Shown piece by piece: positions 17,289 to 56,763 of a stretch of DNA of 64,000 bases. Every line of letters begins with the position of its first letter. The first letter of the stretch is position 1. The notes under the pieces were generated by a model. That model saw nothing but the letters and a program-made list of their open reading frames with translations. It was not told where the DNA came from and ran no database searches. Position numbers and translations under genes: made by a program. Source of the stretch: Zhaonella formicivorans (lineage in GTDB: Bacteria > Bacillota > DUOV01 > Zhaonellaceae); contig NZ_CP085524.1 of the NCBI RefSeq assembly GCF_004353525.1, positions 1,832,142-1,896,141 of the forward strand, written 5' to 3'.

Positions 17289-17461
17289 TAAGTTGTCAGA
17301 GGTTTTGCAGTCGGTAATTGGAATTTATTGGTCTAAGTTCCATCTCTTTAAGAAAGTGGTATAATTATTTTAGAAAAGGGGATGTTTCCGTCCCGCCTAC
17401 ATGATTTGTCGTAGGCTTCAAAATCCTTTTTATTCAACTTCTAAAGGAGTGAGTGTTTCCC

Positions 17462-18100
17462 ATGGAAGAAATGCTTAACCAAATACTAACTGAACTTAAG
17501 TTAGTGAAAACAGACATTGAGTCAATGAAGTCAGACATTGTATCTATGAAATCAGACATTGGAGAGCTAAAGCAAGGGCAGGCAAAACTCGAACAAGGAC
17601 AGGCAAAACTCGAGCAAAGACAGGCAAAACTCGAGCAAGGACAGGCAAAACTCGAGCAAGGACAGGCAAAACTCGAACAAGGACAGGCAAAACTCGAACA
17701 AGGACAGGCAAAACTCGAACAAGGACAGGCAAAACTCGAGCAAGGACAGGCAAAACTCGAGCAAGGACAGGCAAAACTCGAGCAAGGACAGGCAAAACTC
17801 GAGCAAGGACAGGCAAAACTCGAGCAAGGACAGGCAAAACTCGAGCAAGGACAGGCAAAACTCGAGCAAGGACAGGCAAAACTCGAGCAAGGACAGGCAA
17901 AACTCGAGCAAGGACAGCAAGACATTGTAAGCCGCTTAGATAAAATAGAAGCCAAGCTCGACGATATTGAAACTAAAAATGCCAACAACCATGTAGTTCT
18001 TCTTACAGAAATTAAAAATATTCAAAAAGACTTGAACGCCATAGAAATCATAACCGGCAAAAACATGCAGGATATCGCCCACCTGAAAGCAATCAAGTAA
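17462..18100 (+). CDS. Coiled-coil protein with LEQGQAK heptad repeats, function unknown
   Basis: About 212 residues. Short N-terminal heptad-like region (MLNQILTELKLVKTDIESMK), then sixteen nearly identical LEQGQAK heptads plus one degenerate copy, then a C-terminal region (LDKIEAKLDDIETK...LNAIEIITGKNMQDIAHLK). The whole chain should form a long parallel coiled coil; there is no signal peptide or membrane segment. The heptads are encoded by a 21-bp tandem repeat, so length probably varies between strains. The ATG at 17462 is used; a GTG at 17453 is also possible, since the AGGAG site is 12 nt from the former and 3 nt from the latter. No function can be assigned. Confidence 0.75.
   Translation: MEEMLNQILTELKLVKTDIESMKSDIVSMKSDIGELKQGQAKLEQGQAKLEQRQAKLEQGQAKLEQGQAKLEQGQAKLEQGQAKLEQGQAKLEQGQAKLEQGQAKLEQGQAKLEQGQAKLEQGQAKLEQGQAKLEQGQAKLEQGQAKLEQGQQDIVSRLDKIEAKLDDIETKNANNHVVLLTEIKNIQKDLNAIEIITGKNMQDIAHLKAIK
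17567..17920 (+). repeat. 21-bp tandem repeat inside the coiled-coil gene
   Basis: The unit CTCGAGCAAGGACAGGCAAA(A) recurs in frame every 21 nt from 17588 to 17903 (sixteen starts), preceded by one degenerate unit at 17567. Differences are few (gaa/gag for Glu, one AGA for GGA giving LEQRQAK), which indicates recent expansion by slippage or unequal recombination. Confidence 0.95.
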
Positions 18101-22609: not shown

Positions 22610-23920
22610 ATGACTGACTCATATGATGCCATTGTGGTCGGCGCAGGTCCGGCGGGTAGTTCCGCCGCATATATAATGGCCCAGGCTGGCCTGGAGGTTT
22701 CCCTGCTGGAACGGGGCGAATATCCGGGATGCAAGAACGTCTATGGAGGCACAATCTACCGTGAACCAACGGAGGAAATTATACCTGCTTTTTGGCATGA
22801 AGCTCCGTTGGAGCGCCCCGTTGTTTCCGATGAGTTGTGGCTTGCCGGGCAGGATTCTGCCGTGAAAGTGGGTTTTAGCGGGCTGCGTTTTGCCAAAGAA
22901 CCATATAATAAATTTACCGCCCTACGCGCTAAATTTGACCGCTGGCTGGCAAACAAAGCGGCGGAGGCCGGCGCGGAGGTGCGTACCAAAGCCCTGGTGC
23001 GCCACCTGTTATATGAAAAATCTCTCGTGGGGAAAAATAAAAAAGTATTAGGCGTACAGCTGGACTCGGGGGAAGAACTGCGCGCCAATGTGGTAATCTT
23101 GGCTGAAGGTGTAAATGCTTTTCTCACCAAGGAAGCAGGTCTACGCTCCAAAACTCCTGCCCATACCATGACTTTGTATGTCCGGGAAATCTTGCATCTT
23201 CCTGCCGAAAAAATTGAGGAACGTTTTAACCTGGAAAAAGGAGAAGGGGCCATTATCGGCATCATCGGTTACCCCACTGCCGGGGCAGTAGGTAAAGCCG
23301 GCCTGTATACTAATAAAGACTCTATTTCACTAATTGCTGGAGCTTATCTGGATCAGATGGTGGAAAAAGGTCTGAGCCCCTACGAAATGCTGTGGCGGAC
23401 TAAGACCCACCCCCTGGTAAAAAGGCTTCTGGAGGGGGCAGAAAGTATTGAGTACCAGTCCCACATGATCCCAAAGGGCGGCTATGCTTTTATTCCCAAA
23501 CTCTATTTCAGCGGCCTGTTAGTCATCGGCGATGCCGCTATGATGATCAGCGGTCGGCGTGGCACCGACCTGGCCATGTTAACAGGAAAATATGCGGCTG
23601 AAACAGTGATCTTAGCCAAAGCCAAAGGGGATTTTACCGGGAAGATGCTGGCCACATACGCTCACAAGTTAAACAGCACATTCTTCATGAAAGATATCAA
23701 AACAGGGAAAAATTCCCTCGATTATTATAAAAAGCATCAGGACAGCGATTACCTTCTAGCCAGCACCGCCAACGAACTGGCCTACCAGTTTTTTACGGTG
23801 GATATGCTGTCCGATAAGGAGCGGCAGGAAAAAATGATTGGAACTGTGTTGGCCAAACAACTTCCGTTTAAAACTGCAGTGGACTTATACGAAGCCTACA
23901 AAAACTGGGAGGTATTTTAG
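22610..23920 (+). CDS. fixC: FixC-like flavoprotein (electron-transfer flavoprotein:quinone oxidoreductase family)
   Basis: 436 residues with an N-terminal FAD dinucleotide fold (AIVVGAGPAGSSAAYIMAQAG, then LLERGEYPG), FDRWLANKAAEAGAEV, an ILAEGVNA strand and the C-terminal FAD motif VIGDAAMMISG. FixC and FixX together form the ETF:quinone oxidoreductase-like partner of FixAB; no etfAB/fixAB genes are nearby. The ATG at 22610 has GGAGG 6 nt upstream, so the longer frame from 22565 is unlikely. Position opposite the PocR regulator and upstream of fixX suggests it handles electrons of the methyl-oxidation or betaine pathway (inference). Confidence 0.9.
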   Translation: MTDSYDAIVVGAGPAGSSAAYIMAQAGLEVSLLERGEYPGCKNVYGGTIYREPTEEIIPAFWHEAPLERPVVSDELWLAGQDSAVKVGFSGLRFAKEPYNKFTALRAKFDRWLANKAAEAGAEVRTKALVRHLLYEKSLVGKNKKVLGVQLDSGEELRANVVILAEGVNAFLTKEAGLRSKTPAHTMTLYVREILHLPAEKIEERFNLEKGEGAIIGIIGYPTAGAVGKAGLYTNKDSISLIAGAYLDQMVEKGLSPYEMLWRTKTHPLVKRLLEGAESIEYQSHMIPKGGYAFIPKLYFSGLLVIGDAAMMISGRRGTDLAMLTGKYAAETVILAKAKGDFTGKMLATYAHKLNSTFFMKDIKTGKNSLDYYKKHQDSDYLLASTANELAYQFFTVDMLSDKERQEKMIGTVLAKQLPFKTAVDLYEAYKNWEVF

Positions 23921-24213
23921 TGCCAATGCAAAAGTTTCACGGCGATCCCCTTGCCTTGACCGATTTAGAAGCAGATGTCATCTCCCATATTGCGCTGAAA
24001 AACGAAAGAAAATGCCAGCAAGAATGTACAAATAAACCCTGCACCTACATCTGCCCGTCGGAAGTTTATAATTGGAATTTTAATGCCAATAAAGTGGCCA
24101 TCGATTATAAAAGATGCATCGAATGCGGGGCCTGTGTTTTGGCTTGTCCGCAGGAAAACATTATTTGGGTTTACCCCCGGGCAGGTTATGGTGTCACTTA
24201 CCACCATGGCTGA
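23920..24213 (+). CDS. fixX: FixX-like ferredoxin
   Basis: 97 residues with Cys motifs CQQECTNKPCTYICP and CIECGACVLACP, as in FixX-type ferredoxin-like proteins that accompany FixC. The GTG start overlaps the fixC stop codon (TAG) and has GGAGG 7 nt upstream, so translation is coupled. It probably forms one complex with FixC. Confidence 0.9.
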   Translation: MPMQKFHGDPLALTDLEADVISHIALKNERKCQQECTNKPCTYICPSEVYNWNFNANKVAIDYKRCIECGACVLACPQENIIWVYPRAGYGVTYHHG

Positions 24214-24228
24214 AGGAGGTGTAAGCAA

Positions 24229-24540
24229 TTGCCCGACTGGAAAAACATTTTTGCAGCCCCTGCTGTAAAGCTTTTAAAAAATGAAGCTGTGCCCGGAACA
24301 AAATTCAATGAAGCAGCCTTGCACGTGGGGGGGCTGCTCTGCTTTCTTTGAAGTAACAGGGTAAAAAAGTCCCTGCTAGGCGTGACAGGGGTCAAAAGCG
24401 TAACATGTGAACAAAAAAGCGATATATTTTTGGTTGAATACGATCCGGAAAAAACGGGAGTAAAAGAGTTGGAGCAAACGATTTTAAAAGTTGCCTTGGC
24501 CAAGGGAGCGCGAAAAATGTTGAGTAAAGTTAAAAATTAA
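24229..24540 (+). CDS. Candidate selenoprotein with heavy-metal-associated (HMA) domain, CxxU motif
   Basis: A 103-residue frame that is open only if the in-frame TGA at 24349-24351 is read as an amino acid. It follows fixX by 15 nt and has AAGGAGG upstream of a TTG start. Around the TGA the protein reads GGLLCFL-U-SNRVKKSLLGV, then TGVKSVTCEQKSDIFLVEYDP. This aligns with the HMA/CopZ fold pattern GMTCxxC...V...L...GV..V.V........V.YDP, with the TGA exactly at the second Cys of CxxC. A hairpin with CCCTG/CAGGG arms and a 10-nt loop containing GG begins about 20 nt after the TGA, a possible bacterial SECIS. The organism clearly makes selenoproteins. Alternative: a pseudogene with a Cys-to-stop mutation. 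Confidence 0.6.
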
Positions 24541-24558: not shown

Positions 24559-24590
24559 ATGGTCTGAAACAATGCCCCAGACCATTTTTC
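24559..24590 (+). terminator. Terminator of the fixC-fixX-HMA operon
   Basis: ATGGTCTG (24559-24566) pairs with CAGACCAT (24578-24585), followed by a TTTTTC run. It directly follows the HMA frame, which supports that frame being the last gene of the operon. Confidence 0.85.
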
Positions 24591-26471: not shown

Positions 26472-27443
26472 TTAGCTCCGGAGTCTGGTAAATTCCACAT
26501 CGCCAGGAATAGTGCCTTGGAAACCCTGCATGTAAAACCCGATATCCACCCCGAATAATTGTATATAGCGTTTGACCGTTCCATTGGCCAACAGCTCCTT
26601 TCGTTTTGGTGTGGCTTGGAATCCGTGGCCGAGAACGAAAAGTTCCGGCTTTTTTTTATTTAATAATAAGCCACGCTTGATCATTTCAAAAACACCAAGG
26701 TCAATGGCATCCAGCGACAACCCGATAAAATAGAGGCGCTCGGCCTGGATAATCAGTTTTATGGCCGCAAGCCAACAATTTTCCAGAGGTGTGTCTTTAT
26801 GCCGGGGTAAAACGGTAGGACCTACCAGCAGGGGACTGAGTTTTGTTTCCCCGCAGGTTTGGCAATTCATTTTTTCCCAGTCTTTAAAGTCGTAACCCGT
26901 AACGTTTAGTTGAGTACAAGCTTCGCACCATGCCCAATTTACCGAACCGTGGAGCTTGACCAGCGGAAAACCGTGCTGTATGGTTCCAGTAAAACCATAA
27001 TTTAAAGCCCAACCTTTTTCACATTCCAATACATAATCAAGGGCCGTGTCCCAGTTTAAAGTCAGCACTGCATCTTGTCCCATATTCAGTTCCCGGGCAA
27101 AGCGCCGGTAGATGTCCACGGAGCCGGCATAATCGGCTTTTGCGGTATCTTTGGCAAACAACCTGCAAATACTCAAGTTCAATTCCCGGCGCAATGTCCT
27201 CAAATCTTCTTGAGTGAAACTCCCCAGCCTATGATCTTGAAACAGGGCATAATCAACCACAGAATAAATGTCATCCAGCCTTGGCAAAAACGCGCCGTGG
27301 GCAAGTTGACTATTAACTGCAAAGAGCTCCCTCATAAAACGGGCCACACCTGGTTTTTCGGCAATATAGCCGGAGAGTTCCTTAAGAGCCGGTATGCCCC
27401 CTGCCTTGGAAGCCCCTGCTCCCAAAATAAACAGTCGCTGCAA
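26472..27443 (-). CDS. SIR2-like domain protein with zinc ribbon, function unknown
   Basis: 323 residues. FILGAGASKAGGIP at the N-terminus is the NAD-binding loop of SIR2-like proteins, and VLTLNWDTALDYVLE corresponds to the T-N-x-D motif. VKLHGSVNWAWCEAC contains the conserved His, and CEAC...CQTCG (about residues 176-205) forms a four-Cys zinc site. This resembles the SIR2_2 group that includes NAD-hydrolysing immune effectors, but there is no second effector, membrane or nucleotidyltransferase domain, and no defence gene next to it. It stands alone between the BCCT and rubredoxin genes. A deacylase or NADase role cannot be decided from sequence. Confidence 0.7.
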   Translation of the reverse strand: MQRLFILGAGASKAGGIPALKELSGYIAEKPGVARFMRELFAVNSQLAHGAFLPRLDDIYSVVDYALFQDHRLGSFTQEDLRTLRRELNLSICRLFAKDTAKADYAGSVDIYRRFARELNMGQDAVLTLNWDTALDYVLECEKGWALNYGFTGTIQHGFPLVKLHGSVNWAWCEACTQLNVTGYDFKDWEKMNCQTCGETKLSPLLVGPTVLPRHKDTPLENCWLAAIKLIIQAERLYFIGLSLDAIDLGVFEMIKRGLLLNKKKPELFVLGHGFQATPKRKELLANGTVKRYIQLFGVDIGFYMQGFQGTIPGDVEFTRLRS

Positions 27444-29235: not shown

Positions 29236-30519
29236 TTAGGCGGCTTCCTGTAATTCTTGCCTTCTTATATCACTCATCATTTTTTGTGGGTCATAAGCTA
29301 CGCCTTTTCTCAGTAAGGTGTAAAATATCCTTATGAGCTTACAGCATAAGAGTACTAGCGACTGTTTCTTTTTGAGCGGGTTCTGTGGCCTTGTTGTGTA
29401 GTACTGGTGTAGTTCTTTAAATTCGTTGTTCTTAGCCACTATGGGCATAATCCCTTGAAATAACAACGATCTTAGCCTTTTTCGCCCTCGTTTGCTAATA
29501 GTTGTTTGGCCCTTATGCTTTCCTGAGCTATTTTCTTTCAGGCTTAGTCCCGCCAGCTTCTGTACCTGCTTTGGATGTTCAAACCTTGTAATATCCCCTA
29601 CTTCAGCTATAAACCCTGCTGCTGCTATGAGGCCTACTCCCTTGATTTTTAGCATTTCTTCAATACCGGGAATCTGCATGGCTAATTCTTCTATTAGAGC
29701 CATTGTCCTTTCATATTGCCTCTGCAGCATTTCATATTCTTCTAGTAGTGTGGCAAGTTCATTTTGAGCTGCTCTTAATCCTTCTCGTACTCCTACTGAT
29801 ATCTTTGCTGCCTCAACTAGTTGGCTGGCTCGTCTAACTCCAACAGCTCTGCTGATTTCTTTTCTCCAGCTGGCAACTATGCCTTCGACGCCTTTTTCAA
29901 GTACTTTATCCGGTGTTGGAAACTCTTTTAGCGTTACTATTGCTGCTTTGCCTTCCCAATCCCCAAAGACTCTGTTGAACTCCGGGAAATATATGCTTAT
30001 CCAGCGTTTAACTCTGTTTCGGATGCTGTTAAGCTGCTTCACTAATCTTAAGCGGGTTTCCATTGCATTTCGTAAATCGCTGTAAATTCCTTCGGGAATG
30101 TACGGTTCCATGTATCGACCGTCTTTTACCAGCATGGCAATGGTTTTTGGGTCCTTTCGGTCATTTTTGGTCGGATTATTATCATCCAATTCTTTGCTTC
30201 GCTTTACGTGAAACGGATTCACTAGTACTATTTTCAGCTGGTGATCCTTAAGATGCTGGGCAAAGGTAAACCAATAGTGTCCCGTAGGCTCCATCCCAAC
30301 CATTACCTGCTGCTTCTGCTGTTGTTTTGCCACACTTTTTACCCACTCAGAAAATGTCTTGAAGCCGTTGTTGTCATTATTGAATTTTAGTAGCTTAGCT
30401 AGTTCTACGCCTCTGTAATCGAAAGCTCTGGCGTAATTTGTCTCGCTAGCTACATCTACACCAATGATTAAAGTCTTTTCTGTTATTTGCAAAATTCTTG
30501 AGTTCTGGTTATACTTCAT
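29236..30519 (-). CDS. IS110-family transposase
   Basis: 427 residues. The N-terminal DEDD RuvC-like domain (IIGVDVASETNYARAF, then GMEPTGHYWF and KNDRKDPKTIAML) and the C-terminal Transposase_20 domain with its Ser region (IPGIEEMLKIKGVGLIAAAGFIAEVGDITRF and LAGLSLKENSSGK) are both complete, so the protein is probably active. The ATG has GAGGAGG upstream, and that site is buried in an inverted repeat. It is inserted between the comER-like gene and the first grdD. Confidence 0.95.
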   Translation of the reverse strand: MKYNQNSRILQITEKTLIIGVDVASETNYARAFDYRGVELAKLLKFNNDNNGFKTFSEWVKSVAKQQQKQQVMVGMEPTGHYWFTFAQHLKDHQLKIVLVNPFHVKRSKELDDNNPTKNDRKDPKTIAMLVKDGRYMEPYIPEGIYSDLRNAMETRLRLVKQLNSIRNRVKRWISIYFPEFNRVFGDWEGKAAIVTLKEFPTPDKVLEKGVEGIVASWRKEISRAVGVRRASQLVEAAKISVGVREGLRAAQNELATLLEEYEMLQRQYERTMALIEELAMQIPGIEEMLKIKGVGLIAAAGFIAEVGDITRFEHPKQVQKLAGLSLKENSSGKHKGQTTISKRGRKRLRSLLFQGIMPIVAKNNEFKELHQYYTTRPQNPLKKKQSLVLLCCKLIRIFYTLLRKGVAYDPQKMMSDIRRQELQEAA

Positions 30520-31016: not shown

Positions 31017-31023
31017 TTATAGG
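30995..31023 (-). terminator. Palindrome over the grdD stop codon of operon 1
   Basis: CCTATAATTATT and AATAATTATAGG form a perfect 12-bp inverted repeat with a 5-nt loop that includes the grdD stop codon (31017-31019). It may terminate or stabilise the 3' end of the betaine reductase transcript. There is no T run afterwards. Confidence 0.4.
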
Positions 31024-32186
31024 AATTGAGCCTCTTTCAAAAGCTCAACAGCCTTCTCCTTGTCCTCGGGAGCAACCATGACGATTGGCCCGGTGCAGCC
31101 CATGCCGCTGGTGGCGTAGATGTTGTTCTTCCACAGCACCTGCACCGCATCTTCCAGCTGCAGGATCTCTATCCCCGGGATCTCGGCGGTAACCGGTTTC
31201 TCCGGCGGAGGAGTTACTGCGCCGCCGGCTTCTGCTTTCTTGGCGGCATTTGCCGGGCACTCAAAGGAGCTGATGATGCTCTCCCAGCCTGCTTTTTTTG
31301 CTGCGGCAAATTCCGCGTTTGCTTTCTCCAGGAGTTTTCCTTTGGCTGCATCACCCGCATAGCGGATTGCCCCGGCTACTACGGGTGCCCCCGAAGCCCG
31401 GGACAGGATGCAGATAATCCGGTCGTAGTTTTCCCCTACTCCGGGCCCGTAGCCGTAGCCCAGTGCTTCGTAGTTGCCTCCGCTGGTGTAGGCAGAGAAC
31501 ATCTTCATCAGCACGTTTCCGGTCAGGCTGTCGGTAACCATTACATCTGGCACTCCCAATAGCAGGTCGTTCCCTCGCATCACTACGCCGCCGTCGCTTC
31601 TGGCCGACTCGGTAAAGTTGATGGGGTAGCCGTTTTCCTGTAGTTTTTTTAGGGCCCTTTCCACCTGCCGGGCGCCCTCGATATTTAAAATGCCAACGGT
31701 TGGGTTGGCCTTGCCGCAGGCTTTGGCGGCAGCTATGCCGTAGAGGGTGTTCTTCAGCATGGCTGTTACCCGTTCGGTGGCAGAGGTGCCGGTGGTGGTG
31801 GCTAAAAACATTTCTTTGCCTTTCCCGGGTGTGATTACTCTGCCTACGGTGGATACTCCGATGGGGAAGCTGTAGTGCATTGTTACTGCGGCATCTAAAC
31901 TGCCTTCGCTGAGCATTTTATCCATAATGGCGTGGGCTTCTTTTTCATCCTGGGCTTGTACCAGCTCTAAACGGGTCTTGACGCCGCTGCCGATGACCAC
32001 CACTTCCAGGTCGGGGTTTTGTCCCTGGGCCAGCTCGGCGCCGTAGACAAGTTCTTTGGGACCGTGCTCGCTGCCCAGGATGGTTAAGCCTACCCTCACT
32101 TTTCTTCCGAAGGTCCCTGTCTCCAGGGCATTGGCAATTTCTTCGAATATCTCGCTGATGGTGTTGCGCATAATTTTACTGTCCAC
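31017..32186 (-). CDS. grdD: Glycine/sarcosine/betaine reductase component C, alpha subunit (operon 1)
   Basis: About 389 residues of the PlsX-like GrdD family. With GrdC it takes the carboxymethyl-selenoether from selenoprotein A and releases acetyl phosphate. The catalytic Cys is in ATSGMGCTGPIVM near residue 364; GILNIEGARQVERAL and GYGPGVGENYDRIICIL are typical. The start is likely GTG 32186, 8 nt after GGGAGG; a GTG at 32195 lies inside that site. It differs from the other two copies at the extreme C-terminus (EAQFL instead of EAGYL) and by Ile for Met near the N-terminus; otherwise the three are nearly identical. Confidence 0.95.
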   Translation of the reverse strand: MDSKIMRNTISEIFEEIANALETGTFGRKVRVGLTILGSEHGPKELVYGAELAQGQNPDLEVVVIGSGVKTRLELVQAQDEKEAHAIMDKMLSEGSLDAAVTMHYSFPIGVSTVGRVITPGKGKEMFLATTTGTSATERVTAMLKNTLYGIAAAKACGKANPTVGILNIEGARQVERALKKLQENGYPINFTESARSDGGVVMRGNDLLLGVPDVMVTDSLTGNVLMKMFSAYTSGGNYEALGYGYGPGVGENYDRIICILSRASGAPVVAGAIRYAGDAAKGKLLEKANAEFAAAKKAGWESIISSFECPANAAKKAEAGGAVTPPPEKPVTAEIPGIEILQLEDAVQVLWKNNIYATSGMGCTGPIVMVAPEDKEKAVELLKEAQFL

Positions 32187-32202
32187 TTTTTTCACCTCCC
32201 GA

Positions 32203-32243
32203 TTAGCTATCAGCCGTCAGCTGTCAGCTATCAGCACTCATTT
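32203..32243. repeat. TAGCTATCAGCCGTCAGCTG low-complexity repeat
   Basis: Iterated imperfect AGCTGTCAGCTATCAGC units between grdC and grdD of operon 1. The homologous gaps in operons 2 (about 42497-42520) and 3 (about 55064-55099) carry different numbers of units, so the array varies even though the flanking genes are almost identical. The same units occur at 63920-63955. Confidence 0.65.
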
Positions 32244-32288
32244 CTTTCATGGCTGGAGAATTAGGTTAACCTTTATGCGAAAATCAGG

Positions 32289-33827
32289 TTATTCTGCTTT
32301 CAAGGTATTGGCAAAGCTCCGCATCGCTTCGGCAATCATCTTCCTGACTTCTTCTTTATCAAACCCACTTTCCACTTTGCCGGAGTTCTTCTCCATGATG
32401 AAGGATACTCCGTCAAAGAGGTTGGTGAGTCTTCCCAAGAAAAGGCTGCCTTTGCCGATGATCATGGCTCTTTTGATTTTGCCTTCCAGGATCAGGTCCC
32501 GGGCAAAGCCGATGTAGGGTACTCCTGAAGGAATATGGCCCTGGGTCGGTGCAAAGCCCGGCATGCCGAACTCATTAACCACTTTCTCCAGGTCGGCCCG
32601 GTCAAATTCCCCTCTTTTTACTCCCAACGCAGCTATCATTTTGTAGTTGGCTTTGGGCACGTCCCCGGCTCCGGCCGGTTCTGTAATTTCGGGGTTCTGC
32701 ATTTCTACGGAGAACCGGTCGATTTCAGATAGTTTTATTCCTGCTTTGTCCAAGGGGTCGGTTACGATGGCCTGCATTACTGCCTGGGGTGAGGCGCCGG
32801 AACCGATCTTATGGCGCCCTACCATGTCGGTGCGGATTACGGGGCTTACGCCGTCGTTTTCACTGATGTGTACGGCAAAGGCGCCCAGCATGTCTTCTAA
32901 TACCGGCATTTCTTTTTTTACATGGTCTTTGGAGTTCATGCCAAGCTTGGCAGAGGCTCCACCGGCCACTACTACTATGTTCTTGTACACTCCGGCCTGG
33001 GCTAATGCTGCTGCTTCCACCAGGGCGTGGGCAGGTCCTGCGCAGAAACCGCGGGTGTCGGAGCCGGTGGCGTTAACGCAGCCGCACACTTCGCCGATGG
33101 ACTTGGCAAAGTTGCCGCCGCCCCTTTGGTTCATGTCGCCGCAGGCTTCTTCGGAGCATTCGATGATGTAGTCTATGTCTTCGGCTTTTAAATCCGTCTT
33201 TGCTAATAACAGTTTTAAGGCAAATACAGCCGATGCTTTGCTGACCAGGTTTTCAAACATTACATGCTCGGTTAAGGCCTGGTCGAACTCATGGGCTTTT
33301 TTCACGCAGCCCACCAGTTTCCCCCCCAAGTACATGGGTTCTGCCAGGTGGTCGGCTACCAGTTTCTCCAAATCTTTGGCTTGGGCTGGGTTCTTATCTA
33401 ATTTGGCTAAGTCTTTTAAGTCTCCTAAGACAGGATGGGCGGAGAGTTTTGCTTTTACTCCCGCCTGGAAGCCTTCTTCCAAAAGCACCAGGTCAAAGGC
33501 GTCTACTGCTTTCATTAAGCCGTAGAATTCGTCTTCCGGCATGATTTCCCCGTATTTGCCGTCCCTGCCCCCATTATTTACCGGGTTTTGGTACCAGGGC
33601 CGGGGGATGTTATTCAGTTCTTCAGGCAGCATGTTGCCGATGTAGACTTGGTTTGGGGCATATTTCACTGCTTCGTCAAAGCTCCTTAAGGCCCCGGGCA
33701 GTTTCTGCAGATGCTCTGAGTCCGGGTTCTTGCGCCGTTCGCTGGTCTGGGTGGTCCCCTGGTGAATCACCATATCGGGTGCTTGAATAAGTGCATAGCT
33801 GGCCCCTCTCACAACGGGATAGTTCAT
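32289..33827 (-). CDS. grdC: Glycine/sarcosine/betaine reductase component C, beta subunit (operon 1)
   Basis: 512 residues of the GrdC family, related to ketoacyl-ACP synthase III/thiolases. With GrdD it forms protein C. The segment GGGNFAKSIGEVCGCVN followed by DTRGFCAGPAHALVEAAA contains the likely active Cys. The start is ATG 33827 (MNYPVVRGASYALIQ) following GGAGGTGA; an upstream in-frame ATG overlaps that site. The predicted protein is identical to the copy of operon 2. Confidence 0.95.
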   Translation of the reverse strand: MNYPVVRGASYALIQAPDMVIHQGTTQTSERRKNPDSEHLQKLPGALRSFDEAVKYAPNQVYIGNMLPEELNNIPRPWYQNPVNNGGRDGKYGEIMPEDEFYGLMKAVDAFDLVLLEEGFQAGVKAKLSAHPVLGDLKDLAKLDKNPAQAKDLEKLVADHLAEPMYLGGKLVGCVKKAHEFDQALTEHVMFENLVSKASAVFALKLLLAKTDLKAEDIDYIIECSEEACGDMNQRGGGNFAKSIGEVCGCVNATGSDTRGFCAGPAHALVEAAALAQAGVYKNIVVVAGGASAKLGMNSKDHVKKEMPVLEDMLGAFAVHISENDGVSPVIRTDMVGRHKIGSGASPQAVMQAIVTDPLDKAGIKLSEIDRFSVEMQNPEITEPAGAGDVPKANYKMIAALGVKRGEFDRADLEKVVNEFGMPGFAPTQGHIPSGVPYIGFARDLILEGKIKRAMIIGKGSLFLGRLTNLFDGVSFIMEKNSGKVESGFDKEEVRKMIAEAMRSFANTLKAE

Positions 33828-33889
33828 CCTGTTCACCTCCATTAGTCACAATTAAGCACCGGCGTTTATCCGGCGCTTAGTTCTATTGC

Positions 33890-34342
33890 TTAAATATTTA
33901 TCCACGATAGGTGCTTACTGCTTTTGATGATGGCATCAACATCCAGCACCATTTCCATCATGCTGACTTGATCTTCGTAGACTTGAGCGTCAACTTCATC
34001 TTTTAATTCAAAAATATGGTAAGCTTTGAGTCCCAACGAGACTCCTGCTAATGGACCCGCAAAAGTGGGATCGCCTTGGGATACGGTTTCGGCGGCGAGA
34101 CCAGCAGCTTCAGCTTCTGCTCCCCCTAAAACAACGATTAAATCCTCTTTACCGTATTTCTCCGCAAGTTCTTTAATGCGAGCCTGATTTTCCAGGTCCA
34201 TTGCGCCGGCGGCAGTTCAGACAAAGCATTCTGTAGTCGAGAACACTACTTCAGCGCCGGCAGACTTGACGCACTCTTCGATAGCCGGACCGGGCACGCC
34301 GTCACGGTCACCGAGAATGGCAACTTTTTTGCCTTTCAGCAT
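33890..34342 (-). CDS. grdA: Glycine/sarcosine/betaine reductase selenoprotein A, frameshifted C-terminus (operon 1)
   Basis: Selenoprotein A carries the carboxymethyl group as a selenoether. The gene reads through a TGA at 34217-34219 in the context [16 protein letters not shown], at residue 42. The start is ATG 34342 with AAAGGAG upstream. Compared with the copies at 44179 and 58104, a one-base insertion and a substitution near 33920 change the last codons: the copies end [11 protein letters not shown], this one [14 protein letters not shown] and is three residues longer. The core is intact, so it may still work; an assembly error is also possible. Confidence 0.9.
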
Positions 34343-34782: not shown

Positions 34783-36003
34783 TTATTTGCCGGCTGCAAT
34801 TTGTTTTTTTACTTCTTCGGCGCTAAAGTCACCGCAGAGTTTAGCAACCGCTTGGCCACCCTCGAAGAATACTACTGCAGGAATGGAGGTTACACCATAA
34901 CGCTTGGCAACCCTTTGGTTTCTGTAGGTATCTATCTTAACCAGCTTAACGCTGTCTCCCAATTCGGCGGCAGTCTGTTCCAGCAACCCTACGGCTGCAA
35001 TGCTGGCCTCGTTTTGGGGCGCCCAGAACGCTACCATCACCGGCTTGTCAGCGTTTAATACCTGTTCCTTGAAGCCTTCTTCTTCGGCCAGGTACTTCTC
35101 GGCTGCTACGGCGGCTACAGCGCCGTCGGCTGCAGCTGTGATGACCTGCCTCAAGTATTTGACTCTGGCATCTCCTACAGCATAGACGCCGGGTACTGAC
35201 GTTTCCATCTGCTCATTAGTGATAATATACCCTTTTTCGTCAAGTTCTACTTTGCCCCGGAGGAATCCGGTTTTGGGAACGGTGCCTACGAAGAAGAAGA
35301 CTCCGTTGGTTTCCATTTCCGTCAGTTCTCCGGTTTTGATGTTTTTGATTACTACAGACTCAACAATGCCGTCTCCTTTGATTTCCTCCAACACAGAGCT
35401 CCAGACCCATTCAATTTTCGGGTTGGCAAAAGCTTTCTCGGCGCTCACCTTATTGCAGTCCAGGATGCCTTCGTCATGGATTACGATGATGGTAACCTTG
35501 TTGGCAAACTTGGTGAGATACATTGCTTCTTCGATAGCGGCATCGCCGTTGCCGACCACTACCACATCCAGGTCTTCAAAGAAATCGGCGTCACAGGTGG
35601 CGCAGTAGGAAACGCCCTTACCTCTTAAAGCCCGCTCCCCTTTGATATTTAAGCTTCTCGGTTCGGCGCCGGGAGCCAGGATTACTGTTTTGGCCAGGTA
35701 TTCTTTACCGCTCTTTGTTTTAACAACCTTAATTTCTCCTTCAAGCTCCAAATCAACGACTTCTTCTTTGAGGATTTCGGTACCGAAACTTTTTGCATGT
35801 TCGGCCATTGCTTTCATTAAGCCGGGGCCGGTTGTGCCCCTGGAAAAGCCGGGATAATTCTCCATCTCCTGTGTTGTTGCCGCCTGACCTCCCGGTCTGG
35901 CTTTTTCCAATATAACAGTTTTCAGCCGTGCCCTGGAACCGTAGATGCCTGCGGCAAGGCCGGCAGGACCACCGCCCACTACTACAATATCAAATACCTC
36001 CAT
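34783..36003 (-). CDS. trxB: Thioredoxin reductase with C-terminal degenerate thioredoxin domain (operon 1)
   Basis: 406 residues. The first 310 are a low-molecular-weight thioredoxin reductase: FAD motif VVVGGGPAGLAAGIYG, NADPH motif VVVGNGDAAIEEAM, redox site CATC in VSYCATCDADFF, and the C-terminal FAD motif GVYAVGDARV. An extra domain of about 95 residues has a thioredoxin fold (VMVAFWAPQNEAS, YGVTSIPAVVFFEGG) but lacks the CxxC. It probably docks the partner thioredoxin. Electrons flow NADPH to TrxB to TrxA to protein A. It shares KLCGDFSAEE with the operon 3 copy, whereas operon 2 has KLSGDFTAEE. Confidence 0.93.
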   Translation of the reverse strand: MEVFDIVVVGGGPAGLAAGIYGSRARLKTVILEKARPGGQAATTQEMENYPGFSRGTTGPGLMKAMAEHAKSFGTEILKEEVVDLELEGEIKVVKTKSGKEYLAKTVILAPGAEPRSLNIKGERALRGKGVSYCATCDADFFEDLDVVVVGNGDAAIEEAMYLTKFANKVTIIVIHDEGILDCNKVSAEKAFANPKIEWVWSSVLEEIKGDGIVESVVIKNIKTGELTEMETNGVFFFVGTVPKTGFLRGKVELDEKGYIITNEQMETSVPGVYAVGDARVKYLRQVITAAADGAVAAVAAEKYLAEEEGFKEQVLNADKPVMVAFWAPQNEASIAAVGLLEQTAAELGDSVKLVKIDTYRNQRVAKRYGVTSIPAVVFFEGGQAVAKLCGDFSAEEVKKQIAAGK

Positions 36004-41311: not shown

Positions 41312-42481
41312 TTACAAATACCCTGCCTCTTTCAAAAGCTCAACAGCCTTCTCCTTGTCCTCGGGAGCAACCATGACGATTGGTCCGGTGCAGCCCATGC
41401 CGCTGGTGGCGTAGATGTTGTTCTTCCACAGCACCTGCACCGCATCTTCCAGCTGCAGGATCTCTATCCCCGGGATCTCGGCGGTAACCGGTTTCTCCGG
41501 CGGAGGAGTTACTGCGCCGCCGGCTTCTGCTTTCTTGGCGGCATTTGCCGGGCACTCAAAGGAGCTGATGATGCTCTCCCAGCCTGCTTTTTTTGCTGCG
41601 GCAAATTCCGCGTTTGCTTTCTCCAGGAGTTTTCCTTTGGCTGCATCACCCGCATAGCGGATTGCTCCGGCTACTACGGGTGCCCCCGAAGCCCGGGACA
41701 GGATGCAGATAATCCGGTCGTAGTTTTCCCCTACTCCGGGCCCGTAACCGTAGCCCAGTGCTTCGTAGTTGCCTCCGCTGGTGTAGGCGGAGAACATCTT
41801 CATCAGCACGTTTCCGGTCAGGCTGTCGGTAACCATTACATCTGGCACTCCCAATAGCAGGTCGTTCCCTCGCATCACTACGCCGCCGTCGCTTCTGGCC
41901 GACTCGGTAAAGTTGATGGGGTAGCCGTTTTCCTGTAGTTTTTTTAGGGCCCTTTCCACCTGCCGGGCGCCCTCGATATTTAAAATGCCAACGGTTGGGT
42001 TGGCCTTGCCGCAGGCTTTGGCGGCAGCTATGCCGTAGAGGGTGTTCTTCAGCATGGCTGTTACCCGTTCGGTGGCAGAGGTGCCGGTGGTGGTGGCTAA
42101 AAACATTTCTTTGCCTTTCCCGGGTGTGATTACTCTGCCTACGGTGGATACTCCGATGGGGAAGCTGTAGTGCATTGTTACTGCGGCATCTAAACTGCCT
42201 TCGCTGAGCATTTTATCCATAATGGCATGGGCTTCTTTTTCATCCTGGGCTTGTACCAGCTCTAAACGGGTCTTGACGCCGCTGCCGATGACCACCACTT
42301 CCAGGTCGGGGTTTTGTCCCTGGGCCAGCTCGGCGCCGTAGACAAGTTCTTTGGGACCGTGCTCGCTGCCCAGGATGGTTAAGCCTACCCTCACTTTTCT
42401 TCCGAAGGTCCCTGTCTCCAGGGCATTGGCCATTTCTTCGAATATCTCGCTGATGGTGTTGCGCATAATTTTACTGTCCAC
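41312..42481 (-). CDS. grdD: Reductase component C, alpha subunit (operon 2)
   Basis: Second copy of GrdD, near-identical to the copies at 31017 and 53876, with catalytic Cys in GMGCTGPI and C-terminus EAGYL. GTG 42481 is preferred, 8 nt after GGGAGG. It closes operon 2 and ends 18 nt before the hairpin shared with tetR. Differences from the operon 3 copy are limited to two residues that I can see (PDV for PDI, ANAA for ANAV). Confidence 0.95.
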   Translation of the reverse strand: MDSKIMRNTISEIFEEMANALETGTFGRKVRVGLTILGSEHGPKELVYGAELAQGQNPDLEVVVIGSGVKTRLELVQAQDEKEAHAIMDKMLSEGSLDAAVTMHYSFPIGVSTVGRVITPGKGKEMFLATTTGTSATERVTAMLKNTLYGIAAAKACGKANPTVGILNIEGARQVERALKKLQENGYPINFTESARSDGGVVMRGNDLLLGVPDVMVTDSLTGNVLMKMFSAYTSGGNYEALGYGYGPGVGENYDRIICILSRASGAPVVAGAIRYAGDAAKGKLLEKANAEFAAAKKAGWESIISSFECPANAAKKAEAGGAVTPPPEKPVTAEIPGIEILQLEDAVQVLWKNNIYATSGMGCTGPIVMVAPEDKEKAVELLKEAGYL

Positions 42482-42569
42482 TTTTTTCACCTCCCGATTA
42501 GCTGTCAGCTATCAGCACTCATTTCTTTCATGGCTGGAGAATTAGGTTAACCTTTATGCGAAAATCAGG

Positions 42570-44108
42570 TTATTCTGCTTTCAAGGTATTGGCAAAGCTC
42601 CGCATCGCTTCGGCAATCATCTTCCTGACTTCTTCTTTATCAAACCCACTTTCCACTTTGCCGGAGTTCTTCTCCATGATGAAGGATACTCCGTCAAAGA
42701 GGTTGGTGAGTCTTCCCAAGAAAAGGCTGCCTTTGCCGATGATCATGGCTCTTTTGATTTTGCCTTCCAGGATCAGGTCCCGGGCAAAGCCGATGTAGGG
42801 TACTCCTGAAGGAATATGGCCCTGGGTCGGTGCAAAGCCCGGCATGCCGAACTCATTAACCACTTTCTCCAGGTCGGCCCGGTCAAATTCCCCTCTTTTT
42901 ACTCCCAACGCAGCTATCATTTTGTAGTTGGCTTTGGGCACGTCCCCGGCTCCGGCCGGTTCTGTAATTTCGGGGTTCTGCATTTCTACGGAGAACCGGT
43001 CGATTTCAGATAGTTTTATTCCTGCTTTGTCCAAGGGGTCGGTTACGATGGCCTGCATTACTGCCTGGGGTGAGGCGCCGGAACCGATCTTATGGCGCCC
43101 TACCATGTCGGTGCGGATTACGGGGCTTACGCCGTCGTTTTCACTGATGTGTACGGCAAAGGCGCCCAGCATGTCTTCTAATACCGGCATTTCTTTTTTT
43201 ACATGGTCTTTGGAGTTCATGCCAAGCTTGGCAGAGGCTCCACCGGCCACTACTACTATGTTCTTGTACACTCCGGCCTGGGCTAATGCTGCTGCTTCCA
43301 CCAGGGCGTGGGCAGGTCCTGCGCAGAAACCGCGGGTGTCGGAGCCGGTGGCGTTAACGCAGCCGCACACTTCGCCGATGGACTTGGCAAAGTTGCCGCC
43401 GCCCCTTTGGTTCATGTCGCCGCAGGCTTCTTCGGAGCATTCGATGATGTAGTCTATGTCTTCGGCTTTTAAATCCGTCTTTGCTAATAACAGTTTTAAG
43501 GCAAATACAGCCGATGCTTTGCTGACCAGGTTTTCAAACATTACATGCTCGGTTAAGGCCTGGTCGAACTCATGGGCTTTTTTCACGCAGCCCACCAGTT
43601 TCCCCCCCAAGTACATGGGTTCTGCCAGGTGGTCGGCTACCAGTTTCTCCAAATCTTTGGCTTGGGCTGGGTTCTTATCTAATTTGGCTAAGTCTTTTAA
43701 GTCTCCTAAGACAGGATGGGCGGAGAGTTTTGCTTTTACTCCCGCCTGGAAGCCTTCTTCCAAAAGCACCAGGTCAAAGGCGTCTACTGCTTTCATTAAG
43801 CCGTAGAATTCGTCTTCCGGCATGATTTCCCCGTATTTGCCGTCCCTGCCCCCATTATTTACCGGGTTTTGGTACCAGGGCCGGGGGATGTTATTCAGTT
43901 CTTCAGGCAGCATGTTGCCGATGTAGACTTGGTTTGGGGCATATTTCACTGCTTCGTCAAAGCTCCTTAAGGCCCCGGGCAGTTTCTGCAGATGCTCTGA
44001 GTCCGGGTTCTTGCGCCGTTCGCTGGTCTGGGTGGTCCCCTGGTGAATCACCATATCGGGTGCTTGAATAAGTGCATAGCTGGCCCCTCTCACAACGGGA
44101 TAGTTCAT
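42570..44108 (-). CDS. grdC: Reductase component C, beta subunit (operon 2)
   Basis: 512 residues, same protein sequence as the operon 1 GrdC as far as I can compare, including the DTRGFCAGPAHAL active-site segment. The start is ATG 44108 after GGAGGTGA. The intergenic DNA on both sides is also shared with operon 1, so the duplication or conversion tract covers grdA, grdC and grdD with their spacers. Confidence 0.95.
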   Translation of the reverse strand: MNYPVVRGASYALIQAPDMVIHQGTTQTSERRKNPDSEHLQKLPGALRSFDEAVKYAPNQVYIGNMLPEELNNIPRPWYQNPVNNGGRDGKYGEIMPEDEFYGLMKAVDAFDLVLLEEGFQAGVKAKLSAHPVLGDLKDLAKLDKNPAQAKDLEKLVADHLAEPMYLGGKLVGCVKKAHEFDQALTEHVMFENLVSKASAVFALKLLLAKTDLKAEDIDYIIECSEEACGDMNQRGGGNFAKSIGEVCGCVNATGSDTRGFCAGPAHALVEAAALAQAGVYKNIVVVAGGASAKLGMNSKDHVKKEMPVLEDMLGAFAVHISENDGVSPVIRTDMVGRHKIGSGASPQAVMQAIVTDPLDKAGIKLSEIDRFSVEMQNPEITEPAGAGDVPKANYKMIAALGVKRGEFDRADLEKVVNEFGMPGFAPTQGHIPSGVPYIGFARDLILEGKIKRAMIIGKGSLFLGRLTNLFDGVSFIMEKNSGKVESGFDKEEVRKMIAEAMRSFANTLKAE

Positions 44109-44178
44109 CCTGTTCACCTCCATTAGTCACAATTAAGCACCGGCGTTTATCCGGCGCTTAGTTCTATTGCTTAAATAT

Positions 44179-53875: not shown

Positions 53876-55045
53876 CTACAAATACCCTGCCTCTTTCAAA
53901 AGCTCAACAGCCTTCTCCTTGTCCTCGGGAGCAACCATGACGATTGGCCCGGTGCAGCCCATGCCGCTGGTGGCGTAGATGTTGTTCTTCCACAGCACCT
54001 GCACCGCATCTTCCAGCTGCAGGATCTCTATCCCCGGGATCTCGGCGGTAACCGGTTTCTCCGGCGGAGGAGTTACTGCGCCGCCGGCTTCTGCTTTCTT
54101 GACGGCATTTGCCGGGCACTCAAAGGAGCTGATGATGCTCTCCCAGCCTGCTTTTTTTGCTGCGGCAAATTCCGCGTTTGCTTTCTCCAGGAGTTTTCCT
54201 TTGGCTGCATCACCCGCATAGCGGATTGCTCCGGCTACTACGGGTGCCCCCGAAGCCCGGGACAGGATGCAGATAATCCGGTCGTAGTTTTCCCCTACTC
54301 CCGGTCCGTAGCCGTAGCCCAGTGCTTCGTAGTTGCCTCCGCTGGTATAGGCGGAGAACATCTTCATCAGCACGTTTCCGGTCAGGCTGTCGGTAACCAT
54401 TATATCGGGCACTCCCAATAGCAGGTCGTTCCCTCGCATCACTACGCCGCCGTCGCTTCTGGCCGACTCGGTAAAGTTGATGGGGTACCCGTTTTCCTGT
54501 AGTTTTTTTAGGGCCCTTTCCACCTGCCGGGCGCCCTCGATATTTAAAATGCCAACGGTTGGGTTGGCCTTGCCGCAGGCTTTGGCGGCAGCTATGCCGT
54601 AGAGGGTGTTCTTCAGCATGGCTGTTACCCGTTCTGTAGCTGAGGTGCCGGTGGTGGTGGCTAAAAACATTTCTTTGCCTTTGCCGGGTGTGATTACTCT
54701 GCCTACGGTGGATACTCCGATGGGGAAGCTGTAGTGCATTGTTACTGCGGCATCTAAACTGCCTTCGCTGAGCATTTTATCCATTATGGCGTGGGCTTCT
54801 TTTTCATCCTGGGCTTGTACCAGCTCTAAACGGGTCTTGACGCCGCTGCCGATGACCACCACTTCCAGGTCGGGGTTTTGTCCCTGGGCCAGTTCGGCGC
54901 CGTAGACAAGTTCTTTGGGACCGTGCTCGCTGCCCAGGATGGTTAAGCCTACCCTCACTTTTCTTCCGAAGGTCCCTGTCTCCAGGGCATTGGCCATTTC
55001 TTCGAATATCTCGCTGATGGTGTTACGCATAATTTTACTGTCCAC
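53876..55045 (-). CDS. grdD: Glycine reductase component C, alpha subunit (operon 3)
   Basis: Third near-identical GrdD, with GMGCTGPI active-site Cys and C-terminus EAGYL as in operon 2. It differs by PDIMVTDS and ANAVKKAEA. The start GTG 55045 follows GGGAGG by 8 nt. Last gene of the glycine reductase operon, directly before a strong terminator. Confidence 0.95.
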   Translation of the reverse strand: MDSKIMRNTISEIFEEMANALETGTFGRKVRVGLTILGSEHGPKELVYGAELAQGQNPDLEVVVIGSGVKTRLELVQAQDEKEAHAIMDKMLSEGSLDAAVTMHYSFPIGVSTVGRVITPGKGKEMFLATTTGTSATERVTAMLKNTLYGIAAAKACGKANPTVGILNIEGARQVERALKKLQENGYPINFTESARSDGGVVMRGNDLLLGVPDIMVTDSLTGNVLMKMFSAYTSGGNYEALGYGYGPGVGENYDRIICILSRASGAPVVAGAIRYAGDAAKGKLLEKANAEFAAAKKAGWESIISSFECPANAVKKAEAGGAVTPPPEKPVTAEIPGIEILQLEDAVQVLWKNNIYATSGMGCTGPIVMVAPEDKEKAVELLKEAGYL

Positions 55046-55147
55046 TTTTTTCACCTCCCGATTAGCTAGCAGCCGTCAGCTGTCAGCTATCAGCACTCAT
55101 TTCTTTCATGGCTGGAGAATTAGGTTAACCTTTATGCGAAAATCAGG

Positions 55148-56686
55148 TTATTCTGCTTTCAAGGTATTGGCAAAGCTCCGCATCGCTTCGGCAATCATCT
55201 TCCTGACTTCTTCTTTATCGAACCCGCTTTCCACTTTGCCGGAGTTCTTCTCCATGATGAAGGATACTCCGTCAAAGAGGTTGGTGAGTCTTCCCAAGAA
55301 AAGGCTGCCTTTGCCGATGATCATGGCTCTTTTGATTTTGCCTTCCAGGATCAGGTCCCGGGCAAAGCCGATGTAGGGTACTCCTGAAGGAATATGGCCC
55401 TGGGTCGGTGCAAAGCCTGGCATGCCGAACTCATTAACCACTTTTTCCAGGTCGGCCCGGTCAAATTCCCCTCTTTTTACTCCCAACGCAGCTATCATTT
55501 TGTAGTTGGCTTTGGGCACGTCCCCGGCTCCTGCCGGTTCTGTAATTTCGGGGTTCTGCATTTCTACGGAGAACCGGTCGATTTCAGATAGTTTTATTCC
55601 TGCTTTGTCCAAGGGGTCGGTTACGATGGCCTGCATTACTGCCTGGGGTGAGGCGCCGGAACCGATCTTATGGCGCCCTACCATGTCGGTGCGGATTACG
55701 GGGCTTACGCCGTCGTTTTCACTGATGTGTACGGCAAAGGCGCCCAGCATGTCTTCTAATACCGGCATTTCTTTTTTTACATGGTCTTTGGAGTTCATGC
55801 CAAGCTTGGCAGAGGCTCCACCGGCCACTACTACTATGTTCTTGTATACTCCGGCCTGGGCTAATGCTGCTGCTTCCACCAGGGCGTGGGCAGGTCCTGC
55901 GCAGAAACCGCGGGTGTCGGAGCCGGTGGCGTTAACGCAGCCGCACACTTCGCCGATGGACTTGGCAAAGTTGCCGCCGCCCCTTTGGTTCATGTCGCCG
56001 CAGGCTTCTTCGGAGCATTCGATGATGTAGTCTATGTCTTCGGCTTTTAAATCCGTCTTTGCTAATAACAGTTTTAAGGCAAATACAGCCGATGCTTTGC
56101 TGACCAGGTTTTCAAACATTACATGCTCGGTTAAGGCCTGGTCGAACTCATGGGCTTTTTTCACGCAGCCCACCAGTTTCCCCCCCAAGTACATGGGTTC
56201 TGCCAGGTGGTCGGCTACCAGTTTCTCCAAATCTTTAGCTTGGGCTGGGTTCTTATCTAATTTGGCTAAGTCTTTTAAGTCTCCTAAGACAGGATGGGCG
56301 GAGAGTTTTGCTTTTACTCCCGCCTGGAACCCTTCTTCCAATAGCACCAGGTCGAAAGCGTCTACTGCTTTCATTAAGCCGTAGAATTCGTCTTCCGGCA
56401 TGATTTCCCCGTATTTGCCGTCCCTGCCCCCATTATTTACCGGGTTTTGGTACCAGGGCCGGGGGATGTTATTCAGTTCTTCAGGCAGCATGTTGCCGAT
56501 GTAGACTTGGTTTGGGGCATATTTCACTGCTTCTTCAAAGCTCCTTAAGGCCCCGGGCAGTTTCTGCAGATGCTCTGAGTCCGGGTTCTTGCGCCGTTCG
56601 CTGGTCTGGGTGGTCCCCTGGTGGATCACCATATCGGGTGCTTGAATAAGTGCATAGCTGGCCCCTCTCACAACGGGATAGTTCAT
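55148..56686 (-). CDS. grdC: Glycine reductase component C, beta subunit (operon 3)
   Basis: 512 residues, one visible difference from the other copies (SFEEAVKYAP instead of SFDEAVKYAP). The start is ATG 56686 after GGAGGTGA; the upstream DNA then diverges from operons 1 and 2 because grdB, not grdA, lies upstream here. Confidence 0.95.
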   Translation of the reverse strand: MNYPVVRGASYALIQAPDMVIHQGTTQTSERRKNPDSEHLQKLPGALRSFEEAVKYAPNQVYIGNMLPEELNNIPRPWYQNPVNNGGRDGKYGEIMPEDEFYGLMKAVDAFDLVLLEEGFQAGVKAKLSAHPVLGDLKDLAKLDKNPAQAKDLEKLVADHLAEPMYLGGKLVGCVKKAHEFDQALTEHVMFENLVSKASAVFALKLLLAKTDLKAEDIDYIIECSEEACGDMNQRGGGNFAKSIGEVCGCVNATGSDTRGFCAGPAHALVEAAALAQAGVYKNIVVVAGGASAKLGMNSKDHVKKEMPVLEDMLGAFAVHISENDGVSPVIRTDMVGRHKIGSGASPQAVMQAIVTDPLDKAGIKLSEIDRFSVEMQNPEITEPAGAGDVPKANYKMIAALGVKRGEFDRADLEKVVNEFGMPGFAPTQGHIPSGVPYIGFARDLILEGKIKRAMIIGKGSLFLGRLTNLFDGVSFIMEKNSGKVESGFDKEEVRKMIAEAMRSFANTLKAE

Positions 56687-56763
56687 CCTGTTCACCTCCA
56701 AAAATGAGTAAAGTTTTGGGTAATGGGCGTTATACCCATTACCCAATTGAAATCGACACATTA

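Follow-up and report, generated by a model that had tools for sequence, protein, structure and literature searches.

A putative HMA-fold selenoprotein family with a conserved Cys-Sec motif and recurrent iron-sulfur protein neighbours

In the genome of Zhaonella formicivorans, a short reading frame directly behind a fixX-like gene is interrupted only by one TGA codon, which occupies the second Cys position of the CxxC metal site in a heavy-metal-associated (HMA) domain. Domains of this type usually serve as metal sites. The locus poses two questions: is the TGA decoded as selenocysteine (Sec), and what would a Cys-Sec pair do in this fold? We consider it very likely that the protein, with Sec incorporated, represents a real family of HMA-fold selenoproteins. 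This conclusion rests on comparative sequence evidence only; there are no peptide or 75Se data. The complete reading, in which the selenoprotein acts as a Cys-Sec redox protein linked to ferredoxin or flavin, is given a probability of roughly 0.5. Throughout, "the window" denotes the whole 64,000-nucleotide stretch of DNA that was analyzed, and features of the locus are listed in Table 1.

Table 1. Features of the putative selenoprotein locus (positions within the window)
Feature	Position	Strand	Remarks
fixC-like FAD oxidoreductase gene (ETF-QO/GGR family), likely in the same operon	22610..23920	+	Match to PRK10157 FixC; same order at locus L067
fixX-like ferredoxin gene	23920..24213	+	Pfam Fer4_ETF_QO, E 4e-9; same order at locus L067
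Ribosome binding site AAGGAGGTG	24213..24221	+	Seen in the sequence; 7 nt upstream of TTG; shares last base of fixX stop
Predicted HMA-fold selenoprotein gene	24229..24540	+	103 aa; TTG start, TAA stop; Pfam HMA E 1.6e-9; 16 full-length homologues
CxxU site	24340..24351	+	Cys38 TGC 24340-24342; Sec41 TGA 24349-24351; both columns invariant in 17 sequences
Likely SECIS hairpin CCCTG-CTAGGCGTGA-CAGGG	24371..24390	+	Arms 24371-24375 / 24386-24390; 19 nt past UGA; weak alone, family hairpin at same offset covaries
Intrinsic terminator	24559..24590	+	Perfect 8-bp stem and T-run; dG -9.8, z -3.7

The frame holds 103 codons before its TAA, and the TGA, at codon 41, is the only one in frame. It begins 15 nt after the stop codon of the fixX-like gene (24211-24213) and ends 18 nt before the terminator hairpin. 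The TTG start is supported by homologues, which begin with M-P-x-L at the equivalent position. With Cys substituted for Sec, the protein scored 38.4 bits against the Pfam HMA model (PF00403), compared with a gathering cut-off of 24.8. The FixC-like protein upstream scored 242 bits against PRK10157 FixC, under that model's cut-off of 610. No FixAB partner lies near the fixCX pair: the genome carries a single ETF pair, at the distant position 2.799 Mb, and FixCX here therefore does not belong to a local FixABCX cluster.

One explanation of the TGA is that an HMA gene has decayed through a nonsense mutation, or that the sequence contains an error; the TGA itself, and nothing else, speaks for it. 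Searching 61 relatives with the window protein yielded three full-length homologues (29-33% identity), all of them containing a single in-frame TGA. A profile of these four sequences was used to search 399 genomes of the phylum, of which 17, our own included, carry the gene; these belong to 8 families and 6 classes. Carriers scored 81-153 bits, whereas ordinary HMA domains did not exceed 47 bits, which leaves a clear gap. All 17 homologues contain exactly one in-frame TGA, in the same alignment column and with coding sequence on both sides, and close pairs differ past the TGA chiefly in the third base of codons, a purifying pattern. These observations, with the covarying hairpin described below, all but exclude decay or sequencing error. 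A pseudogene, a sequencing error and a general reassignment of TGA were each rejected on the basis of the 17 one-TGA homologues and of the neighboring fixX, which uses TGA as its stop codon.

Further searches did not enlarge the family. A second draw of genomes from the phylum, centered on G116, returned essentially the same genomes and so provides no independent evidence, and class-level searches around G004, G013, G039, G090, G112 and G125 added none. Two loci from a scan of genome contigs turned out to lie on the G090 and G161 contigs themselves, and are not extra members.

Fourteen alignment columns are invariant in the 17 sequences (P2, N6, P11, V33, G35, L36, C38, U41, R44, V45, L49, Y71, R95 and L98), among them an Arg three residues past Sec. 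The spacing of the pair is CxxU in 13 sequences and CxxxU in 4. Cys occupies the Sec column in none of the 17, and among the roughly 400 genomes of the phylum no Cys version of the family was found at E <= 1e-13; Sec is therefore probably essential to the protein's job. Two lower-scoring Cys-containing candidates, L048 and L049, were rejected: one is the N-terminus of a P-type ATPase, the other an ordinary CxxC HMA protein that lacks the family's extensions. In family f12 and in G004, about 80 additional residues are fused to the N-terminus of the selenoprotein domain (loci L068-L071, L075-L078 and L063); this extension, with the pattern LLPLKA...DKNT..AK...AED.VS.PF, matched nothing in Pfam and reached the cut-off of no NCBIfam model.

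The machinery for Sec is also supported by sequence. SelB exceeded its cut-off in all 17 carriers, compared with 263 of 399 genomes overall; by a simple calculation that ignores relatedness, such a result would arise at random about once in a thousand. tRNA-Sec was detected at 69 bits or more in 16 of the 17, the exception being G236, a genome that is 75% complete. In Z. formicivorans, selB (2634016-2635905) and the gene for tRNA-Sec (2633791-2633883) are side by side near 2.634 Mb, and the window encodes GrdA with its CFVU motif (U at 34217-34219, minus strand). SelB and tRNA-Sec would decode the UGA at codon 41 as Sec, guided by the hairpin about 19 nt downstream, although Sec insertion in the cell is inferred.

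Taken alone, the window's hairpin does not stand out from shuffled sequence (z -0.7 to -0.9) and has a competitor, an alternative CAGGG/CCCTG pairing; support for this copy comes from the family. After the TGA the alignment is gap-free, and columns 19-26 and 30-37 form the hairpin, with a loop that is mostly GGA. At least six of its eight pairs are kept, in the same place, in 15 of 17 homologues. Over the family, 86% of cells are paired, and two-sided changes occur in six of the eight pairs. None of 500 shuffles reached the observed covariation on any measure, and sliding the hairpin partners abolishes the signal. Real genes had a mean hairpin energy of -9.7 kcal/mol, compared with -5.2 +/- 0.6 kcal/mol for synonymous recoding that preserves the protein and local codon usage; therefore, the protein sequence by itself does not account for the hairpin. 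A family hairpin with compensatory changes is as expected of a SECIS element, and on this comparative evidence we regard such a function as likely.

A first-pass annotation, made from the sequence alone, had proposed a new selenoprotein at this locus. Its placement of a single TGA at the second Cys of an HMA CxxC motif is upheld by the frame, the Pfam match and the alignment, and the position that it described, behind fixX with a separate ribosome binding site and a terminator just after, held as well. Its CCCTG/CAGGG hairpin, estimated at about 20 nt past the TGA, is present at 19 nt; this element is not significant alone and is supported through family covariation. The claim that the genome makes selenoproteins is in line with the presence of GrdA, selB and tRNA-Sec. 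The proposal of a new selenoprotein is supported, in that the frame is preserved before and after the TGA in 16 other genomes, and the checks that could have refuted it revealed scattered stops in no homologue and TGC or TGT at the TGA column in none.

HMA homology and the modelled fold are likewise sequence-supported. All 17 members match Pfam HMA at E <= 0.1, and the PDB relatives found by sequence profile are copper ATPases and CopZ. An AlphaFold model based on the 17 sequences (pLDDT 74.7, with poor ends) has the beta-alpha-beta-beta-alpha-beta HMA fold, and its core superposes on CopA (1kqk) at 0.9 A and on MerP (1osd) at 0.8 A (63 columns for MerP). Foldseek E-values for the model were only about 0.002. 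The classic CxxC metal site is absent, with CxxU or CxxxU in its place; the Pfam model does not require CxxC, and the domain assignment stands.

To our knowledge the family lacks a catalogue entry. Of the 119 prokaryotic selenoprotein families in a 2026 review (PMC13188914), none matches; the review's HMA, MerT, CopZ and CxxU entries all fail to fit. No member (0 of 17) reached a curated NCBIfam cut-off, and the lowest E-value between a member and an NCBIfam model was 4.9e-10. The nearest selenoprotein model, matched by all 17, is NF041115 (UxxU_metal_bind, "metal-binding (seleno)protein"), which also describes an HMA-type domain of small size whose metal motif contains Sec. However, that family has UxxU, with two Sec (table in PMC13188914), whereas ours has one Cys and one Sec, with Cys first in all 17 members; the window protein scored 32 bits against a cut-off of 95, and the model's 74 positions leave out the extensions that the new family has at its N- and C-termini. 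NF045683 (MerT/CopZ fusion-like heavy metal transport selenoprotein) and the MerT selenoproteins (PF02411) share the occurrence of a CopZ-like domain in a selenoprotein, but the membrane MerT part is missing from the window protein, whose 103 aa correspond to the CopZ part only (22.5 bits for NF045683, cut-off 375). A selenoprotein P-type ATPase with UxxC (TIGR01525; PMC13188914) similarly has Sec in a CxxC-like motif of a metal-transport protein, but it is a large ATPase with Sec at the first position, whereas in the window protein the domain stands alone and Sec takes the second position. The fold and the site position are shared with CopZ, MerP and the HMA domains of CopA and ATP7B, but these carry CxxC without Sec, and in the new family the residue before the first Cys is Leu or Ile. 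The CxxU motif itself is shared with GrdA of glycine reductase and with NF041239, a CC/Se motif selenoprotein of Moorella thermoacetica (table in PMC13188914). GrdA belongs to a different protein family, and NF041239 was matched by none of the 17 members at E <= 0.1. Literature searches, confined to open-licence papers, found no description of this selenoprotein family. HMA-type selenoproteins (UxxU, UxxC) are already known, and a stand-alone HMA CxxU protein with conserved extensions and ferredoxin neighbours is likely uncatalogued in the libraries searched. It is apparently one more family beyond the 119 listed. Gene callers that stop at TGA would truncate the gene, so the family has probably been missed or mis-called in public genomes.

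The function of the Cys-Sec pair, and its partners, are inferred from neighboring genes. fixC-fixX is directly upstream in two genomes, that of the window and G112, which is of a different family and class. In nine genomes (eight of f12 and one of f54), a 62-residue [4Fe-4S] ferredoxin starts 44-81 nt downstream. Counting either FixX or [4Fe-4S] ferredoxin, the link recurs at 11 of 17 loci and in 3 of 6 classes. The f38 class and G090 have, in place of a ferredoxin, two small glycine-rich proteins on the flanks of the gene. These flanking proteins are glycine-zipper-like and fall into two families (loci L065, L066, L073 and L072), and the three that were tested had no Pfam or NCBIfam match. 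G004 has neither ferredoxin nor glycine-rich neighbours, and the contig of G125 is too short to tell.

In the reading that we favor, a stand-alone HMA domain (a ferredoxin-like fold) with an extra N-terminal strand and C-terminal helix would have had its CxxC changed to C-x(2,3)-U. The Cys-Sec pair would serve as a redox centre, passing from thiol/selenol to selenenylsulfide and exchanging electrons, in either direction, with adjacent iron-sulfur and flavin proteins. The putative partners are FixC-FixX in the window and the [4Fe-4S] ferredoxin in the largest branch. We favor a redox centre because the iron-sulfur partners are of two independent kinds, motif scans showed no metal-export genes nearby, and Cys never takes the place of Sec; the fold favors a metal site. 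Moreover, the C-to-U spacing varies, unlike that of thioredoxin-type centres, and with a ferredoxin link at only 11 loci the role rests on neighbours. Even if the selenoprotein is accepted, then, the arguments for and against the redox role are closely balanced.

A serious rival, to which we assign less weight, is that the protein is a soft-metal chaperone or scavenger, in which the Cys thiolate and Sec selenolate would bind Cu(I), Hg(II) or Cd(II) in the manner of HMA domains; the ferredoxins would be incidental or would keep the site reduced. Metal binding and transfer are inferred. This explanation is supported by HMA homology in all 17 members, by the fold match to MerP and CopA, by the "metal-binding" name of the nearest model, NF041115, and by other metal-linked selenoproteins in the 2026 review (PMC13188914). 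Against it, a motif scan of 3-15 kb around each homologue and of the 64-kb window detected neither the phosphorylation motif of P-type ATPases nor a second HMA motif, and the recurring partners are ferredoxins. In addition, classic HMA metal sites have Thr, Asp or His before the first Cys, whereas C38 is preceded by Leu or Ile in 17 of 17.

It is also conceivable, but unlikely, that the protein is a delivery or assembly factor whose Cys-Sec pair would deliver metal or persulfide/selenide to an enzyme of the iron-sulfur or nickel type; the neighboring ferredoxin would then act either as the client or as the reductant. Iron-sulfur proteins do adjoin the gene, and the invariant Arg three residues after Sec is compatible with such a factor. 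However, no Fe-S assembly, hydrogenase-maturation or nickel genes were recognized by eye near the homologues, and direct support is lacking.

Returning to the redox reading, the first-pass annotation had linked the protein to FixC/FixX and to betaine demethylation, as a redox or metal-trafficking partner. The FixC/FixX link recurs only in G112. A betaine-specific role was set aside; the other loci are in unrelated neighbourhoods and do not conserve it. The metal-chaperone half of the proposal is unsupported by the neighbourhoods, which point to ferredoxins. A bolder version, which we hold tentatively and would not bet on, is that an HMA metal site was converted to a Sec-dependent redox carrier, the dedicated partner of a ferredoxin or FixCX pair. 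This inferred scheme, if true, would constitute a new iron-sulfur-to-selenol electron link in anaerobic bacteria. The recurring neighbours provide a testable case for an HMA fold in electron transfer rather than in metal trafficking.

Other features of the window were observed incidentally. Its glycine reductase cluster contains three near-identical grdC-grdD pairs (31017-34260, 41312-44123 and 53876-56761), accompanied by three similar thioredoxin reductases (at 34783, 45063 and 60291); GrdA is located by the first pair. Adjoining this cluster is a transposase-like ORF (29236-30519) that by eye resembles the IS110 family. An ORF at 26472-27443, with the start LFILGAGASKAGGIPAL, appears SIR2-type by eye only and is possibly a defence gene. 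Finally, a 215-aa ORF (17453-18100) consists largely of a tandem heptad, GQAKLEQ, in more than a dozen copies, and likely forms a coiled coil.
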